Assembly: GCA_009842675.1 (NCBI GenBank)
Contig: VYEX01000065.1
Span: 1 to 64,000, forward strand
DNA length: 64,000 bases
Reading direction: 5' to 3'
From: Acidimicrobiia bacterium
GTDB taxonomy: Bacteria > Actinomycetota > Acidimicrobiia > Acidimicrobiales > Bin134
A program made the translations under genes and the position numbers. Under the pieces are notes generated by a model. The model saw nothing but the letters and a program-made list of their open reading frames with translations. It did not search any database and was not told the DNA's origin. Positions 9,141 to 59,713 of this stretch are shown here, piece by piece. Within the stretch, counting starts at the first letter, position 1; each line of letters opens with the position of its first letter.

Positions 9141-9199
9141 GCCCCATGGACATCCGCTCCTCCTGCTGACCATAGATTTGCAGCCATGGACATCCGCCA
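9141..9199 (+). repeat. Duplicated gene-start segment before the LysR gene (40-nt period)
   Basis: The 14-nt string CCATGGACATCCGC occurs at 9144 and again at 9184, the second at the LysR start. The upstream copy (ATG 9146) opens a mini-ORF, MDIRSSC, ending at TGA 9167-9169, 16 nt before the real ATG 9186 (MDIRQL...). It is one of several start duplications in this window. Confidence 0.6.
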
Positions 9200-17915: not shown

Positions 17916-18929
17916 CTAGCGGTTCAGCTGGGTCAGGCGGGCCACCAGCACCTCTAATACCCCCTCTGGCGGCACCGCGGAGGCGCCCCGGAGATCCAGA
18001 TCGGCTTGAGCCAGCAGCTCAATCGATCGGGCAACCCTCTTGGGCCCCAGTTTTCGGGCCTGGCGCAGCGCCTTTCGAGCCGGAAAGGTGGAGCCCTTCA
18101 GGCCCAGCAGTTCGGCCGCCTCCTTCTCGTCGGCCGCATCCGCGCCGTCGAGGCGCAGCAGCCGGTTGTGGTGGTTGTAAAGGGTGGAGAGCACCTGCAT
18201 CTCGTTGCGGCCCCCGGCGTGGAGCATCCGGCGCAGTTTGTCCAAGGCGTCGGCGATGTTGCCCGACTCCACCGCATCGGTCAACTCCCAGGGGGGAACC
18301 GACCCGGCCTCCCAGATGAACGGGGCGACATCGTCGGCCTCCAATGCCCGATCCGGGCCATAGGCCGATGCCAGGGTGGTGAGCACCGCGGGCAAGCGGC
18401 TCATGTCCTCCCCCAGGTGGTCGGCCAGCAGCCGCTTGGCCCCAGGCCTAAGCCGGAGCCCCGCGGCGGCGATCTGGGTGTCCATCCATTTGGCGGCGCC
18501 GTCGCGACCCCGGGGAATGCCAGCGCCGACCACCTCTCCGCCGGCTTCGGCCACCGCCTCCGACAGGCGCTTGGGCACGGCGTTCAGCCTCTGAAGCGCC
18601 GGACCCTTCTCCCACACCAACACCAGGTCGGTGGTCTCCAGGGGGTTCTCCAGATAGCCGAGCAGCGGGCTGAGCGAATCGACGGTGGAGAATCGGCCCA
18701 TCTCCCGGCCCACCACCACCCGCCGCTCGGTGAGGAACGGCGGGGTCTGGGCCGCGTCCACCAGCGGGGCGATGTGGTAGTCCTCGTCTTCCAGGTAGGC
18801 GGCCTCGGTCAGCTCGGCCACCATCAGTGACCGGTCGCCGTCGCCCACCAACTGGACTACCCGGTCGCGCACCGCGTTGGACAACAGCACCTCATCGTCT
18901 CCGTGCAAAAGGACCACCGTGGCGCTCAT
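17916..18929 (-). CDS. holA: DNA polymerase III subunit delta
   Basis: 337 aa, the usual length for HolA. The N-terminus (VLLHGDDEVLLSNAVRDRVV) resembles the degenerate P-loop AAA+ fold, followed by helical lid and collar domains. Delta opens the beta sliding clamp within the clamp loader. It lies downstream of folP2-like with a 31-nt gap that contains a duplicated copy of its own start (see 18923-18964). It ends convergently with rpsT, 21 nt apart. Confidence 0.9.
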   Translation of the reverse strand: MSATVVLLHGDDEVLLSNAVRDRVVQLVGDGDRSLMVAELTEAAYLEDEDYHIAPLVDAAQTPPFLTERRVVVGREMGRFSTVDSLSPLLGYLENPLETTDLVLVWEKGPALQRLNAVPKRLSEAVAEAGGEVVGAGIPRGRDGAAKWMDTQIAAAGLRLRPGAKRLLADHLGEDMSRLPAVLTTLASAYGPDRALEADDVAPFIWEAGSVPPWELTDAVESGNIADALDKLRRMLHAGGRNEMQVLSTLYNHHNRLLRLDGADAADEKEAAELLGLKGSTFPARKALRQARKLGPKRVARSIELLAQADLDLRGASAVPPEGVLEVLVARLTQLNR

Positions 18930-18964
18930 CGCCGGACCCTAAGGCGCTCAACGGTCGCGCTCAT
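18923..18964 (-). repeat. Duplicated holA start and 12-codon relay mini-ORF
   Basis: On the minus strand ATG 18964 overlaps the folP2-like stop (ATGA) and reads MSATVERLRVRR, stopping at a TGA that overlaps the holA ATG at 18929. The holA protein begins MSATVVLLHG, so the first five residues are shared. The two starts are 35 nt apart (ATGAGCGCGACCGTTG against ATGAGCGCCACGGTGG, 13 of 16 bases). This is both a start duplication and an exact ATGA...ATGA relay. Confidence 0.6.
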
Positions 18965-23182: not shown

Positions 23183-24217
23183 ATGGACCACATCAGAGGC
23201 ATCCAGCACGACGCGGTCAGCGCATGGTTCGAGGCCAATGTGCCGAATGTGGCCTTGCCGCTGACGTTCGAGTTGATCGCCGGCGGGCACTCCAACCTCA
23301 CCTTCAAGGCCACTGATGCCAAGGGCCAGTGCTACGTGCTGCGCCGACCCCCGCTGTATCAGGTGCTGGCCACCGCCCACGACATGGGCCGAGAGCACAA
23401 GATCATCGCCGCCCTAGCCGATACCGACGTGCCGGTGCCCAAAACCCATGGGCTGTGCGAAGACGAGGCGGTCAACGAGCGCCCGTTCTACGTCATGGAA
23501 TTTGTGGATGGCAGGGTGGTGCGCAACCGCAACCACGCGGCCGCTCTGGCCCCCGAGGTGCGCCGGGCCGCCTCCACCTCGATCGCCGAGACGCTGGCCC
23601 ACATCCACGCGGTGGACGTGGACGAGGTTGGGCTAGGCGATCTGGGCCGCAAGGAGGACTACATAGCCCGCCAGCTCCGGCGCTGGCTGCGCCAGTTCGA
23701 GGAGTCCAAGACCCAGGACCGCCCTCAGATCCAAGAAGTCCACGACCACCTGGTGGCCCGCATCCCCGAACAGGGAGAAGCCGGCATCGTCCACGGCGAC
23801 TACCGCCTGGACAACTGCATCCTCGGCAGCCAAGGCCAGGTAATGGCAGTACTCGATTGGGAGCTGTGCACCCTGGGCGACCGCAACGCCGACGTGGCCC
23901 AGCTTCTGGTGTATTGGGCCGAGCCCGACGATCCCGAATCCGCGTTGGACGATCCCCCCACCTCTGAGGCCGGATTCGCCAGCCGAGCCGAGATGTTCGA
24001 CCTCTATTCCGAGGCGTCCGGGCGCGAAATCGACAGCTTCGAGTTCTACATGGCCTTCGGCTACTGGAAGCTGGCGTGCATCCTCGAGGGCGTGTACAGC
24101 CGATACGTGGGCGGGGCGATGGGCGACAAGGCGCCGCCGCAAGGGGCCGAGAGCTTCGTTGCCCGGGTGGACGCGCTGGTTGAGATGGCTACTTCAGCCG
24201 CGGAGCAAGTGGCATGA
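23183..24217 (+). CDS. Phosphotransferase of the APH/ACAD10-11 type
   Basis: 344 aa from ATG 23183; the track's TTG 23159 is less likely. It is an aminoglycoside-phosphotransferase-like kinase fold with catalytic loop HGDYRLDN and metal-binding VLDWELCTLGD. Members of this branch, common in actinobacteria, resemble the kinase part of human ACAD10/ACAD11, which phosphorylates 4-hydroxyacyl-CoAs before beta-oxidation. No acyl-CoA dehydrogenase is adjacent here. The stop overlaps a duplicated start (ATGA) leading to the PAC2 gene. Substrate assignment is inference. Confidence 0.85.
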   Translation: MDHIRGIQHDAVSAWFEANVPNVALPLTFELIAGGHSNLTFKATDAKGQCYVLRRPPLYQVLATAHDMGREHKIIAALADTDVPVPKTHGLCEDEAVNERPFYVMEFVDGRVVRNRNHAAALAPEVRRAASTSIAETLAHIHAVDVDEVGLGDLGRKEDYIARQLRRWLRQFEESKTQDRPQIQEVHDHLVARIPEQGEAGIVHGDYRLDNCILGSQGQVMAVLDWELCTLGDRNADVAQLLVYWAEPDDPESALDDPPTSEAGFASRAEMFDLYSEASGREIDSFEFYMAFGYWKLACILEGVYSRYVGGAMGDKAPPQGAESFVARVDALVEMATSAAEQVA

Positions 24218-24284
24218 GCAGCGAATTGGCCATTGTCCACCGGGAGCAACGTTCATGAGCAGCGAGTTGGTCATTGTCCACCGG
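24203..24284 (+). repeat. 41-bp tandem duplication spanning the PAC2 gene start
   Basis: Two adjacent 41-bp units, 24203-24243 and 24244-24284, share about 35 of 41 bases. Each contains CATGAGCAGCGA(A/G)TTGG(C/T)CATTGTCCACCGG. The first unit carries the stop of the upstream phosphotransferase in an ATGA overlap; the second carries the real PAC2 start. Because 41 is not a multiple of three, the first ATG reads a separate short frame. Confidence 0.85.
24214..24258 (+). other. 14-codon relay mini-ORF before the PAC2 gene
   Basis: ATG 24214 overlaps the phosphotransferase TGA. It reads MSSELAIVHREQRS and ends at TGA 24256-24258, overlapping the PAC2 ATG at 24255. The PAC2 protein begins MSSELVIVHREF, so the mini-ORF is a near-copy of its N-terminus. 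A ribosome could terminate and restart twice in succession. Whether the peptide itself matters is unknown. Confidence 0.6.
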
Positions 24285-25124
24285 GAGTTCGACTTGGCCG
24301 ATCCCGTCCTGGTGGTGGCCTTGGACGGGTGGGTGGATGCCGGTTTCGGCATGCGCAATGCCACCGAGATCATGGTGAAGGCAGACGATGCAGCTCTGGT
24401 GGCCAGCTTCGACGCCGATCTGCTGGTGGACCACCGAGCCCGCCGCCCCACCATGACGGTGCGGGAAGGCCGGGTAGATGACATCAGCTGGCCGGCCATC
24501 CGCCTCCAGCAGGTGAGCGACTTGGACCAGCGCCCGTTCCTGGTGCTCCACGGGCCGGAACCCGATTTCCGCTGGCAGGCGTTCTGCACCGCGGTCGACG
24601 AACTGGTACAGCGGTTGGGGGTGTCCCGAGTGGTAGCACTGGGGGCCTATCCCGCCGCGGTGCCCCACACCCGCCCGGTGCGTTTGTCGGCCACCGGCAC
24701 TTCCCAGGATCTGATCGAGCAGTTCGGCTCCCCGGCAGGAACCCTGGAGGTTCCCGCAGGGATCAGCGCGGCATTGGCCAAGCGATTCGAGGCCGCCGGC
24801 CTGGAAACGGTGTCGGTGTGGGCCCAAGTACCCCACTATGCGTCCGGTTCCCCGTTCCCGGCTGCCACCGCGGCGCTGTTCCAGGGTCTGCGAGCTGTGG
24901 CCGACCTGAGATTCGATCCGGCGCCGCTGATCGCCGAAGGCCTGGAGGTGTCCCGTCGGCTCGACACCATGATCGCCCAGAATTCCAGCCACAAACGCCT
25001 GCTCGGCCAGCTGGAAAGCGCCTATGACACCAGCATGGGAGATCAGGGCGAGGAGATCCCCACCGGGGACGAATTGGCCGAAGAGCTTGAGCGATTCTTG
25101 CGCGACCAGGACGAGTCAAAATGA
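24255..25124 (+). CDS. PAC2-family protein
   Basis: 289 aa from ATG 24255; the track begins 32 codons earlier in DNA that belongs to the upstream gene. The sequence fits the PAC2 (proteasome assembly chaperone-like) family: LVVALDGWVDAGFGM near the N-terminus and RVVALGAYPAAVPHTRPVRL in the middle, with an acidic C-terminus (ELAEELERFLRDQDES). In actinobacteria such proteins are widespread; their role in proteasome biology is not firmly established. It is coupled to the phosphotransferase upstream and, by another relay mini-ORF, to the LLM oxidoreductase downstream. Confidence 0.86.
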   Translation: MSSELVIVHREFDLADPVLVVALDGWVDAGFGMRNATEIMVKADDAALVASFDADLLVDHRARRPTMTVREGRVDDISWPAIRLQQVSDLDQRPFLVLHGPEPDFRWQAFCTAVDELVQRLGVSRVVALGAYPAAVPHTRPVRLSATGTSQDLIEQFGSPAGTLEVPAGISAALAKRFEAAGLETVSVWAQVPHYASGSPFPAATAALFQGLRAVADLRFDPAPLIAEGLEVSRRLDTMIAQNSSHKRLLGQLESAYDTSMGDQGEEIPTGDELAEELERFLRDQDESK

Positions 25125-25147
25125 CCACCAAGGAGGACCAGACATGA
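25121..25147 (+). other. 8-codon relay mini-ORF before the LLM oxidoreductase
   Basis: ATG 25121 overlaps the PAC2 stop (ATGA). It reads MTTKEDQT and ends at TGA 25145-25147, overlapping the next gene's ATG at 25144. The AAGGAGG ribosome site of that gene lies inside the mini-ORF. Unlike the neighbouring case at 24214, its sequence does not resemble the downstream N-terminus. Confidence 0.5.
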
Positions 25148-26196
25148 AACTCGACGGAGGACTGGTGGCAAGAGCAGCCCGAAAGGGCTCGGTTGGACCC
25201 CTGGCCGATGTTGCCGATTCGGCCCGCAGCTTGGAGGCCGCCGGCTACGACGGGGTCTGGTCGGCCGAGCTCGACCACGACCCGTTCCTGCCGTTGGTGC
25301 TGGCCGCCGAGCACACCAACCGCATCCAGATCGGAACCTCGATTGCGGTGGCATTCGCCCGCAACCCCATGATCCTGGCCAATTTGGGATGGGATCTACA
25401 GGCCTATTCCGGGGGGCGCTTCATCCTCGGTTTGGGCTCGCAGATAAAGCCCCACATCACCAAGCGATTCTCCATGCCCTGGTCTCATCCCGCAGCCCGC
25501 ATGAAGGAGATGATCGACGGCATCAAGGCCATATGGGAAAGCTGGGAAACCGGAGAGCGCCTGAGCTTTCGGGGTGAGTTCTACCAGCACACCCTCATGA
25601 CGCCGATGTTCAGCCCCGGCGCCAATCCTTTCGGCCCTCCCCCCATCCATCTGGCCGCGGTGGGCGATCTCATGACCGAGGTGGCCGGTGAATCGGCCGA
25701 CGGCTGGATCAGCCACGGGTTCACCACCCCAAGTTATGTGCGGGATGTGTCGCTGCCGGCCCTCGAGCGCGGGGCCGCCCGAGCGGGCCGCAATCCGATG
25801 GACATAGAAGTGTCGATGCCCGTGTTCATAATCACCGGCGAGACCGAGGAGGAGATGGCGTCGTCGGCCCAAGCGGCCCGCCAGCAACTGGCCTTCTACG
25901 GCTCCACACCCGCCTATCGCCCGGTGCTGGAGCACCACGGCTGGGGCGACGCCCAAGACGATCTGAACCGAATGTCCAAACAGGGCCAGTGGGTGGAGAT
26001 GGCCGATGTGATCGACGACACCATGCTGGGAACCTTCGGCGTTGTGGCCGAGCCCCAGAACCTGGCCACCGGCGTCGCAGCCAGCTACGGAGGCCTCATC
26101 GACCGCCTGTCGTTTGGCCATGGCCTCCGTCCTGAAGGGCCCTGGGCCGAGGTGCGGGAAGCACTTCGAGCTCTTCCGGGGCGGTCGCCCGAATAG
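25144..26196 (+). CDS. LLM-class F420-dependent oxidoreductase (TIGR03617-like)
   Basis: 350 aa from ATG 25144, preceded by AAGGAGG; the track's earlier start lies inside the PAC2 gene. It is a luciferase-like TIM barrel: AAGYDGVWSAELDHDPFLPL, then IQIGTSIAVAFARNP, and GRFILGLGSQ. The protein resembles the MSMEG_2256 subgroup of F420-using enzymes. It would transfer hydride between F420H2 and an unidentified substrate in the cytoplasm. It lies in a run with a phosphotransferase and a P450, consistent with catabolism of a lipophilic compound. Confidence 0.87.
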   Translation: MKLDGGLVARAARKGSVGPLADVADSARSLEAAGYDGVWSAELDHDPFLPLVLAAEHTNRIQIGTSIAVAFARNPMILANLGWDLQAYSGGRFILGLGSQIKPHITKRFSMPWSHPAARMKEMIDGIKAIWESWETGERLSFRGEFYQHTLMTPMFSPGANPFGPPPIHLAAVGDLMTEVAGESADGWISHGFTTPSYVRDVSLPALERGAARAGRNPMDIEVSMPVFIITGETEEEMASSAQAARQQLAFYGSTPAYRPVLEHHGWGDAQDDLNRMSKQGQWVEMADVIDDTMLGTFGVVAEPQNLATGVAASYGGLIDRLSFGHGLRPEGPWAEVREALRALPGRSPE

Positions 26197-41092: not shown

Positions 41093-42877
41093 ATGGTCAC
41101 GGTCCAAATCGACAACACCGCAGTAATCGATCCCGCCCAGCAAGCCGACATCGACAAGTTCGAGCGGATGCTGGTCCGCTACAAGGCCGGTGAGATACCT
41201 GAGGACGTGATGCGGGTGTTCCGTCTGAACAACGGCATCTACGGGCAGCGTCAGGGCGGCACCAACCAGATGGTGCGGGTCAAGATCCCCGCCGGCATCG
41301 CCCACCCCGAGCACTTCGAGGCCCTGGCCCACATCGCCCGCACCTACTCCCGGGGCTGGGGCCACATCACTACCCGCCAGAACATTCAATTCCACTACGT
41401 GCAGATCGACGACGTCCCCGACGTGATGCGAACCCTGGCCTTGGTGGGGCTCACTACCCGGGAGGCTTGCGGCGACACCGTCCGCAACGTGCAGGGCTGC
41501 CACCTGGCCGGTGCCTGCCCCCACGAGGTGCTGGACATCACCGCCTGGGCCCGGGCCACCGCACTGCACTTCTTGCGCCATCCCTACGCCCAGCGCCTGC
41601 CCCGCAAGTTCAAGATCAACTTCTCGGGCTGCGCCACCGACTGCGGCCAGGCCATGTTCAACGATGTGGGCATAATCGCCGCCACCCGGGAGGTGGACGG
41701 CGGGGTCGAGGCCGGATTCCGGGTGTTCGTGGCCGGCGGTTTGGGGGCCAACCCCCATCCGGCACTGGCACTGGAAGACTTCACCTCCCGCGAGGACCTG
41801 CTCCCCACCATCGAGGCCTGCCTGCGGGTGTTCGACCACGACGGCTACCGGGACAACAAGCTCCGGGCCCGGATGAAGTGGCTGGTGGAGAAGCTGGGCT
41901 TCGAGGAGCTTCAGCGCCGCATTTTCCGGGAGCGCAAGTTCTTGCTGGCCTCCTCCAGCTGGCCCGGAGGCATTCCCGACCTGGTGAAGATTCACGGCGA
42001 CGCCCCTGCTGGGCGCCACGCTGAAGTCGAGGTCACGCCGGTGGGTCAAGGGGTGGCGGTCTCCATCGGCGGCCGGGCGCCGTACGAGCGGTGGGAGCAA
42101 GCCAACGTGGTGCGGGGCGCGGCCAAGGGCACGGTGTCGGCCTACGCCTGGGCCCGCTTGGGCGACATCACCGCCGACCAATTCGACGCCCTGGCCGACA
42201 TCCAGCGGGAGCTGGGAGCGGAGTGCCGGATCACCAACCGCCAGAACATCGTCTTCCGCGACTTGGCCGAGCACCAGCTGTCCCGGCTGTTCGAGTCGTT
42301 GTCGGCTATAGGTATGGCCGAGCCCGGCGCCGAGCTGCTGCGCGACGTGGTGGCCTGCCCCGGCGCCGACACCTGCAACCTGGCCGTCACCCAGTCTCGG
42401 GGATTGGCCGACGCCATTGGCAACCGCTTGGACGAGGAAGGCCTCGCCGAGGTGGGCGGTTTGCGAATCAACATCTCGGGCTGCACCAATTCGTGCGGCC
42501 AGCACCACGCCTCCGACATCGGTTTCTTCGGCGCGGAGCGCAGGGCGCATGGGCGGTCGGCACCGGGCTACCAGATGCTTCTCGGCGGCTATGTGGGCGA
42601 CTCCCAGATCCACTTCGGTACCAAGGCCCTGCGTCTGCCGGCCCGCAATGCCCCTGAAGCGGTGGTGCGGGTGGTGCGCCAGTTCACCGCCGAGCGGGAG
42701 GCCGGCGAGGAGTTCCGCCACTGGCTGGAGCGCAAAGGCGGATCGCGAGAAGTGGGTAAGACTCTGACCGACTTGGACGAGTTCCCCTTGCCTGACGATG
42801 GACCCGAGTTCTACGTCGACTACGACGAGACCGGTCCCTACGAAGCGGTAATCGGCGACTCTGAGTGCGCAACCTGA
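41093..42877 (+). CDS. sir: Ferredoxin-type sulfite (nitrite/sulfite) reductase
   Basis: 594 aa siroheme enzyme with two repeated ferrodoxin-like halves. The siroheme/[4Fe-4S] cysteines are likely those in CPGADTCNLAV (about residues 420-430) and NISGCTNSCGQHHASD (about 460-475); the N-terminal half carries a matching but partly degenerate pair. It reduces sulfite to sulfide by six electrons, usually from ferredoxin. Nitrite reductase activity cannot be excluded, but cysH lies next to it, so sulfite is favoured. It is preceded by a motif-rich promoter region. Confidence 0.9.
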   Translation: MVTVQIDNTAVIDPAQQADIDKFERMLVRYKAGEIPEDVMRVFRLNNGIYGQRQGGTNQMVRVKIPAGIAHPEHFEALAHIARTYSRGWGHITTRQNIQFHYVQIDDVPDVMRTLALVGLTTREACGDTVRNVQGCHLAGACPHEVLDITAWARATALHFLRHPYAQRLPRKFKINFSGCATDCGQAMFNDVGIIAATREVDGGVEAGFRVFVAGGLGANPHPALALEDFTSREDLLPTIEACLRVFDHDGYRDNKLRARMKWLVEKLGFEELQRRIFRERKFLLASSSWPGGIPDLVKIHGDAPAGRHAEVEVTPVGQGVAVSIGGRAPYERWEQANVVRGAAKGTVSAYAWARLGDITADQFDALADIQRELGAECRITNRQNIVFRDLAEHQLSRLFESLSAIGMAEPGAELLRDVVACPGADTCNLAVTQSRGLADAIGNRLDEEGLAEVGGLRINISGCTNSCGQHHASDIGFFGAERRAHGRSAPGYQMLLGGYVGDSQIHFGTKALRLPARNAPEAVVRVVRQFTAEREAGEEFRHWLERKGGSREVGKTLTDLDEFPLPDDGPEFYVDYDETGPYEAVIGDSECAT

Positions 42878-42927
42878 GGCCCTCGGCAAGTTTCATACCG
42901 ATCGGCAATTCCGAATGCGCAACCTGA
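42851..42927 (+). repeat. Duplicated sir-stop/cysH-start junction (50-nt period)
   Basis: ATCGGCGACTCTGAGTGCGC (42851) continuing AACCTGA matches ATCGGCAATTCCGAATGCGC (42901) continuing AACCTGA at 23 of 27 positions. The first unit holds the sir stop and a GTG at 42865; from it a 20-codon frame begins MRNL, as cysH does, and ends IGNSECAT, as sir does (IGDSECAT). The second unit holds the real cysH ATG 42915. Confidence 0.7.
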
Positions 42928-58153: not shown

Positions 58154-59713
58154 CTATTTCTTCGAGGTGAGCGTCTTATCCAGCTCCAGGCCCCGCCCCT
58201 CGCAGGTCGGGCAGACCGATGAGCAAGACTCCAACAGGCCCTCGCCGATGCGCTTGCGGGTCATCTCCACCAATCCCAAATCGGAGATATCCAGCACCTG
58301 GGTACGGGTCTTGTCCCAGGCCAGCGACTCCCGGAATGCCTTCATGACCTCTTCCCGGTTGCCCCGCTTCTCCATGTCCACGAAGTCGATCACGATGATC
58401 CCGCCGATGTCGCGCAGGCGGAGTTGCCGGGGGATCTCCTGAGCTGCCTCCAGGTTGTTGCGGAAGACGGTCTCCTCCAGGTTGGAGTCGCCGACATTCT
58501 TGCCGGTATTCACATCGATGACGGTGAGAGCCTCGGTGCTCTCGATGATCAGCGATCCTCCGCCGGGCAGCCACACCTTCTTGTCCAGGGCCTTGAGAAA
58601 CTGCTCATGCACATGGTGGCGCTCCAGCAGGCTCAGGTGCTCGGCTTCGGCGTCGTAGTACTCCAGCCGCTCGCCCAGTTCGGGGGCCACGCTGGACACG
58701 TAGTCGTGCACTTGGTCGAACAGGCGCCGATCGTCTATCTGGACCGAGCGGAAGTCCTGGTTGAATTCCTCCCGGATGACCCGAACCGCCATCTCGGGCT
58801 CCCGGTACAAAAGTCCGGGCACCTTGGCCTTCTTGGACAGGGCCTCGATCTCCTCCCATTGCGAGACCAGCCGCTTCACGTCGCGCTCCAGTTCCTCTGC
58901 GGTGATCTTCTCGGCCGCGGTGCGGACGATGATCCCATGCTCCTCCGGCTTGCACCGGTCCAGCACCTTGCGGAGACGCTTGCGCTCCTTGTCGGGGAGC
59001 CGCTTGGAGATGCCGTAGGTCTTGGAGTTAGGCACCAGCACCACGAATCGGCCCGGCAACGACACTTCCTGGGTCAGCCGGGCCCCCTTGTGGGCTATTG
59101 GATTCTTGGTGACCTGGCACATGATGGTCTGGCGGGCCTCCAAGAGGTTCTCGATTCGGGGTGAGCCATCGGAGGTCTCCACATCGTCGGGGTCGAACAC
59201 GACATCGCCCCGGTACAGAACCGCATTCTTGGGAGTGCCAATGTCCACAAAGGCGGCCTCCATGCCGGGCAGCACGTTTTGGACTCGGCCCAGGTAGATG
59301 TTGCCGTGAATCTCGCCCACGTCGTCGGCCGGGCGGGAGACGTAGTGCTCGATCAGAGCCCGGCCTTCCAGCACCGCTATCTGGGTGGCCTCCGGGCGCA
59401 CTTGCACCAGCATCATGTAGCGGCCCACCGGGCGTCCCTTGCGACGGCGGCCCCGACGGCGCTCCAGCGTCTTCTCGTCGAGCTCTACCGGGCCGTCAGA
59501 CACCTTGTGCTCTACCGGCTGGATCGGGCGGCTCCCGGCGCCGCGGCCCCTCCCTCCCCGGCGGCGGCGGCGCTTGCGGCCCGAGCCCTCGGAAGAGCCC
59601 GAGCCCTCGGAAGAGCCCGAGCCCCCGGAAGAGCCCGAGCCCCCGGAAGTGCCCGATCCGTTCCCGCTCGGCGCGGGACGGGAATCGCCGATCTTGGGGC
59701 GACCTTCGGTCAT
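58154..59713 (-). CDS. rng: Ribonuclease E/G family protein
   Basis: 519 aa. Residues about 10-50 are low-complexity Gly/Ser/Glu, encoded by 18-bp tandem repeats, then an Arg-rich stretch (RKRRRRRGGRGRG). The catalytic core follows: S1 domain (NIYLGRVQNVLPGMEAAFVD), DNase I-like active site with TVIDVNTGKNVG and IIVIDFVDM, and the Zn-link CPTCEGRG. It cleaves single-stranded A/U-rich RNA in mRNA decay and rRNA processing. It lacks the long C-terminal scaffold of E. coli RNase E. It is in its usual place upstream of rplU. Confidence 0.94.
   Translation of the reverse strand: MTEGRPKIGDSRPAPSGNGSGTSGGSGSSGGSGSSEGSGSSEGSGRKRRRRRGGRGRGAGSRPIQPVEHKVSDGPVELDEKTLERRRGRRRKGRPVGRYMMLVQVRPEATQIAVLEGRALIEHYVSRPADDVGEIHGNIYLGRVQNVLPGMEAAFVDIGTPKNAVLYRGDVVFDPDDVETSDGSPRIENLLEARQTIMCQVTKNPIAHKGARLTQEVSLPGRFVVLVPNSKTYGISKRLPDKERKRLRKVLDRCKPEEHGIIVRTAAEKITAEELERDVKRLVSQWEEIEALSKKAKVPGLLYREPEMAVRVIREEFNQDFRSVQIDDRRLFDQVHDYVSSVAPELGERLEYYDAEAEHLSLLERHHVHEQFLKALDKKVWLPGGGSLIIESTEALTVIDVNTGKNVGDSNLEETVFRNNLEAAQEIPRQLRLRDIGGIIVIDFVDMEKRGNREEVMKAFRESLAWDKTRTQVLDISDLGLVEMTRKRIGEGLLESCSSVCPTCEGRGLELDKTLTSKK
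59581..59660 (-). repeat. 18-bp tandem repeats in the RNase E/G N-terminus
   Basis: Four copies of the unit CCGAGCCCTCGGAAGAGC (plus-strand view), with C/T and T/A changes in later copies, followed by a partial unit. They encode a Gly-Ser-Glu linker between the start and the Arg-rich segment. The repeat number could vary between strains. Confidence 0.85.

Follow-up and report, generated by a model that had tools for sequence, protein, structure and literature searches.

A 41-bp tandem duplication over a gene overlap and the putative translational relay between the APH and PAC2 genes of a Candidatus Poriferisocius-like genome

A stretch of 64,000 nucleotides (the window) from a Candidatus Poriferisocius-like genome of the Acidimicrobiia (approximately 3.39 Mb in 81 contigs; G000 below) was analyzed. 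On its plus strand an APH-family phosphotransferase gene is followed by genes for a PAC2 protein, a luciferase-like monooxygenase and a cytochrome P450, and the first of these junctions raises the question of how two overlapping genes come apart and what is then left between them. The separation of overlapping genes has been less discussed than the origin of overlaps. A simulation paper on overlaps models point mutations only (PMC3887535), and no earlier report of tandem duplication over gene overlaps was found in the open-access literature, subscription papers lying outside the search. The genus is represented by 22 genomes in our collection; the closest named relatives are Acidimicrobiia metagenome genomes, including Candidatus Poriferisocius anaerobius, and the names of these relatives, as we read them, suggest that they are sponge symbionts. 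The answer which we consider probable is that a local duplication over a 4-bp overlap pulled the two genes apart and left a translational relay between them. Coordinates of the features are presented in Table 1.

Table 1. Positions of the genes, repeat units and relay mini-ORFs, numbered within the window except where a locus is named.
Feature	Position	Strand	Remarks
APH-family phosphotransferase gene	23183-24217	+	upstream of the junction; gene call; PF01636, E 7e-49; TGA 24215-24217
PAC2 family gene	24255-25124	+	PF09754, E 2.7e-51; orthologues in the genus
Luciferase-like monooxygenase gene	25144-26196	+	PF00296, E 7.3e-65
Copy 1 of the 41-bp unit	24202-24242	+	GGAG, 8 nt, ATGA (upstream stop and first start), beginning of mini-ORF
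Copy 2 of the 41-bp unit	24243-24283	+	G(G)GAG, 8 nt, ATGA (mini-ORF stop and PAC2 start)
APH/PAC2 mini-ORF	24214-24258	+	14 codons, MSSELAIVHREQRS and stop; ATGA at either end
Second relay in the same gene row, PAC2 to luciferase-like gene	25121-25147	+	MTTKEDQT and stop
35-nt relay mini-ORF	18926-18964	-	MSATVERLRVRR and stop; 1, 2 or 3 units in relatives
50-bp duplication over reductase/cysH-like overlap	42851-42927	+	upstream gene sulfite/nitrite-reductase-like
Period-40 repeat	9144-9197; L058:8523-8654 (G007); L053:6844-6937 (G008)		

Two adjacent 41-bp units stand between the APH and PAC2 genes and are identical at 35 of 41 positions (85%), with a contiguous core, 24213-24246 against 24254-24287, which matches at 32/34. 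The first-pass annotation had given the period, an identity of about 85% and the coordinates correctly, with its frame shifted by 1. The repeat was detected by an ungapped period scan (Tandem Repeats Finder missed it) and was, the 18-bp array at 59579 excepted, the top-scoring repeat of period 15-150 in the window, with a score of 28 versus a maximum of 16 in 40 Markov-1 resamplings of the window. The 18-bp array itself (59579-59656, 4.3 copies) lies near the start of a minus-strand ORF (58154-59713). Each 41-bp unit contains a ribosome-binding site GGAG, an overlapping stop/start ATGA and approximately the first ten PAC2 codons. In the first copy, GGAG at 24202-24205 is followed after 8 nt by the ATG at 24214, with which the upstream TGA overlaps, while in the second copy GGGAG at 24242-24246 is followed after 8 nt by the ATG at 24255; the placing of the upstream stop and a start in copy 1 and of the true PAC2 start in copy 2 was confirmed. 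A third GGGAG (24283-24287) falls within PAC2 codons 10-11, and GGAG recurs at 41-nt steps (24202, 24243, 24284), bounding the unit on either side in G000. Four of the six mismatches between the copies fall in the 5 nt directly 5' of the second ATG.

The first ATG was likewise found, as had been claimed, to be out of the PAC2 frame: its ORF closes at TGA 24256-24258, forming ATGA with the PAC2 start, and the -4 stop/start overlap is present twice (ATGA 24214-24217 and 24255-24258). Because 41 is of the form 3n+2, the -4 overlap is reproduced on either side of a new 14-codon mini-cistron, and by the same arithmetic any 3n+2 duplication over a -4 overlap yields a mini-ORF that begins and ends in ATGA, unless an internal stop occurs. 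The mini-ORF holds the Shine-Dalgarno of PAC2 (GGGAG) and ends on the PAC2 start. Since the unit spans the whole overlap, neither protein is altered, the APH gene keeping copy 1 and the PAC2 gene copy 2. We propose that the 41-bp duplication became fixed over the 4-bp overlap, that the start left over in copy 1 would then be read to the TGA on the copy 2 start, and that a ribosome finishing the APH gene may pass by termination-reinitiation to the mini-cistron and from there to PAC2; termination-reinitiation is known from NTGA overlaps elsewhere among prokaryotes (PMC12548453, PMC6728339). The mini-ORF could instead control PAC2 as a regulatory leader, with attenuation that depends on the peptide or on structure, a role in which the small intergenic ORF mgtQ is known (PMC8092293). 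However, when an RNA attenuator was sought at the junction by folding, the junction RNA folded more weakly than shuffles; the peptide merely copies the PAC2 N-terminus, and relatives with a single unit have no such ORF. We regard a leader of this kind as very unlikely.

All 22 genomes of the genus were searched for the APH-PAC2 junction. Fourteen carry the gene pair with one unit, the stop and the start overlapping as ATGA or GTGA (for example G019, GGAGCAAGTGGC / ATGAGCAGCGAACTGGTC; G012 has GTGA at the contact), G010 has a different sequence upstream of PAC2, five have no close PAC2 orthologue, and only G000 and G018 have two units. The first-pass annotation had taken the repeat for a tandemly duplicated stop/start junction and had suggested that a single-unit ancestor be looked for in close relatives; the fourteen genomes bear this reading out, and adjacent copies together with a single-unit state in relatives are the features of a local tandem duplication. 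Insertion of a mobile MIRU-like element with a short ORF of its own would produce the same layout, in which a short ORF contacts the following gene at -4 nt (PMC12548453). The unit nevertheless copies the local junction, other junctions of the genus have different sequences, and the 99-nt junction, when used to look for MIRU-type dispersal, found only itself in G000, all of which makes such an insertion highly improbable. An assembly artefact deserves hardly any credence: the assemblies are draft metagenomes, but two different genomes have the duplication and the copies are diverged and non-identical.

The mini-ORF of G018 reads MSSELVTVHREQHP and stop, and its breakpoint, CACC / GGGAGCAAC, is identical to that of G000. 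A clade of G000 and G018 was rejected by the APH tree (AU p 3.5e-54) and was not rejected by the PAC2 tree (AU p 0.13). The two duplications may derive from one event with transfer or losses, or from two parallel events; we favour one event because period and breakpoint are identical. The copies are alike within each genome, with ATT in both copies of G000 and ACC in both copies of G018, a likeness that suggests either exchange between the copies or two independent events. In G000 the GGAG at either edge of the unit would fit an origin by slippage or illegitimate recombination at a short repeat; G018 has no GGAG at the right edge of the second copy, and its duplication is therefore not accounted for by its present sequence. 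With respect to the genes themselves (23183-25124), G000 groups with G008 by its APH gene (90.7% identity) but with another clade by its PAC2 gene (identity to G008 just 80.9%), and this discordance suggests recombination near the junction.

To place the locus within its genus, approximately 1.2 Mb from eight genomes was scanned, and tandem repeats with a period not a multiple of 3 were found mostly at gene edges. In an anchored test, the DNA around each start codon was scanned for a copy 15-120 nt upstream. A first count gave 25 of 734 codirectional starts duplicated upstream, and a larger sample gave 26 of 930 codirectional junctions, the 26 representing about 13 distinct junctions with orthologues in several genomes counted separately; the wider pattern of duplicated starts supposed at first reading therefore exists. 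By comparison, one of 384 codirectional junctions was positive in four control sets (two other families of the order, Rhodococcus pRHL1 and Sinorhizobium pSymB), none of 332 divergent starts had an upstream copy, and 6/2104 internal anchors did, all of them in-frame protein repeats, with 0/2104 at periods non-divisible by 3. No period in either count of codirectional starts was divisible by 3, and because gene starts were taken from a codon-usage caller which prefers in-frame upstream starts, such periods are hidden and the fair comparison of frames is that of 3n+1 with 3n+2, which stood at 20 versus 42, with double relays making up many of the 20. All six duplications over overlapping or NTGA-joined starts (35, 41, 44, 50, 68 and 23 nt) were 3n+2. 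The relay count was 55 versus 10.4 under a frameshift null and versus 37 under a composition-shuffle null, the latter a weak null which keeps spacer length. Since relay mini-ORFs also occurred in control replicons (6/35 and 4/25), the relay layout as such may be general, not specific to the genus; it is by start-region duplication that the genus stands out.

The same duplication route may lie behind other spacers of the genus. At the cysH junction, seven genomes have a single-unit state in which the genes overlap by 13 nt, and ten have 50 bp extra which repeat the overlap; the first start then gives a 20-codon ORF, open in 10/10 and with the same endpoint in the next copy. At the 35-bp junction all 18 mini-ORFs are of 12 codons and open, though the inner sequence diverges widely, and G010 has instead a separate near-perfect 44-bp duplication (3n+2). 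This 35-bp series is VNTR-like (L057:17807-17888 in G007; 18926-18964 in the window), with two consecutive relays in five genomes. The 68-bp junction carries a 6-codon relay in 17/17 genomes read and a further 23-codon relay in 11 of the 17, all open. Between PAC2 and the luciferase-like gene, 15 of 16 genomes have an open relay mini-ORF in spacers of 11, 23, 29, 32 or 35 nt, with at least four length changes, every one a multiple of 3. Double relays between genes were also observed (L152, L158, L160 and L163 in G015; L128 in G007), built of equal or unequal units (23+23, 41+17, 23+20, 11+35 and 41+26 nt). Spacers of 73 nt in four genomes (L056, L049, L052, L055) have a conserved end, CGCTGAG(C/G)CTGCCATGA, and differ in the remainder; here a long mini-ORF stops a few nt before the next start.

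Length differences between orthologous spacers were then compared. Among unequal relay pairs the difference was a multiple of 3 in 33 of 44, several of the other 11 being whole added units, while for other spacers this was so in 169 of 522 unequal pairs (169 versus 353). Because these pairs are non-independent, with length changes at only about nine distinct relay junctions, the frame-keeping changes are good but not overwhelming evidence that the mini-ORFs are translated. In such spacers the frame and the ends of the relay mini-ORFs persist, although much of the sequence turns over.

These data bear on whether the relay is used at all. The duplication could be a neutral by-product, tolerated because neither protein is changed, with the mini-ORF and its ATGA end a passive and unused outcome of period 41. 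In keeping with this, the APH/PAC2 duplication is present in two genomes only and all others do without it, and a start-region repeat of period 40 (3n+1) runs from one to four copies between species with no relay frame, the upstream stop at 9186 not being joined to the start; junction duplications can thus persist without a relay. Against it, frames at other junctions remain open in many species and are preserved when lengths change, and every one of the six duplications over overlapping or NTGA-joined starts is 3n+2. We therefore consider a purely neutral origin rather unlikely for the layout, while the 14-codon APH/PAC2 mini-ORF itself may be young and unselected, because the duplication spares both proteins in any case; known from two copies, it is little informative on constraint. 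The APH/PAC2 case is best read as a young example of a process that recurs in the genus, separating overlapping genes and leaving relay mini-cistrons, on which selection for the relay would then act.

The frame rule is testable within the genus, whose junctions form a gradation: the 41-bp and 44-bp duplications are near-perfect, those of 50 bp and 68 bp are intermediate, and at the far end stand relays without a visible repeat. A more tentative and wider proposal is that frame-filtered tandem duplication is a general means of separating overlapping genes in bacteria, 3n+2 periods being kept because a coupling relay remains. If this were true, some short spacers of compact operons would be decayed relays and not untranslated linkers, and translation of the mini-ORFs would mean that some short 'intergenic' operon gaps are tiny cistrons omitted by annotation.

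The junction resembles several known systems. ATGA contacts between consecutive ORFs are those of NTGA translational coupling, but the known contacts run from gene to gene, whereas here two such contacts flank a mini-cistron that arose by duplication (PMC6728339, PMC10666635). As in coupled uORFs and engineered bicistronic designs, a short ORF holds the next Shine-Dalgarno and ends on the next start; the present arrangement differs in that it is natural, lies between cistrons, is at times doubled and can be traced to tandem duplication (PMC12548453). The Salmonella ORF mgtQ, between mgtC and mgtB, is also a small ORF at an operon junction which promotes translation of the next gene, although it acts through RNA structure and translation abortion and involves no duplication (PMC8092293). 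There is also a likeness to the mycobacterial MIRUs (Supply et al. 1997), described in a review as a repeated, apparently mobile family with an ORF coupled at -4 nt at the insertion site (PMC12548453). Both are intercistronic repeats with a short ORF at -4 to the next gene, and MIRU insertion at a start codon is there said hardly to disturb expression (PMC12548453). MIRUs are described as a repeated and apparently mobile family, whereas here each junction copies its own start region. Membership in the MIRU family was rejected, there being no dispersed copies and the unit being, as judged from the single-unit relatives, copied from the local junction and not foreign. By analogy, the APH/PAC2 relay would work like a mycobacterial MIRU without being one, the same layout having been reached by local duplication.
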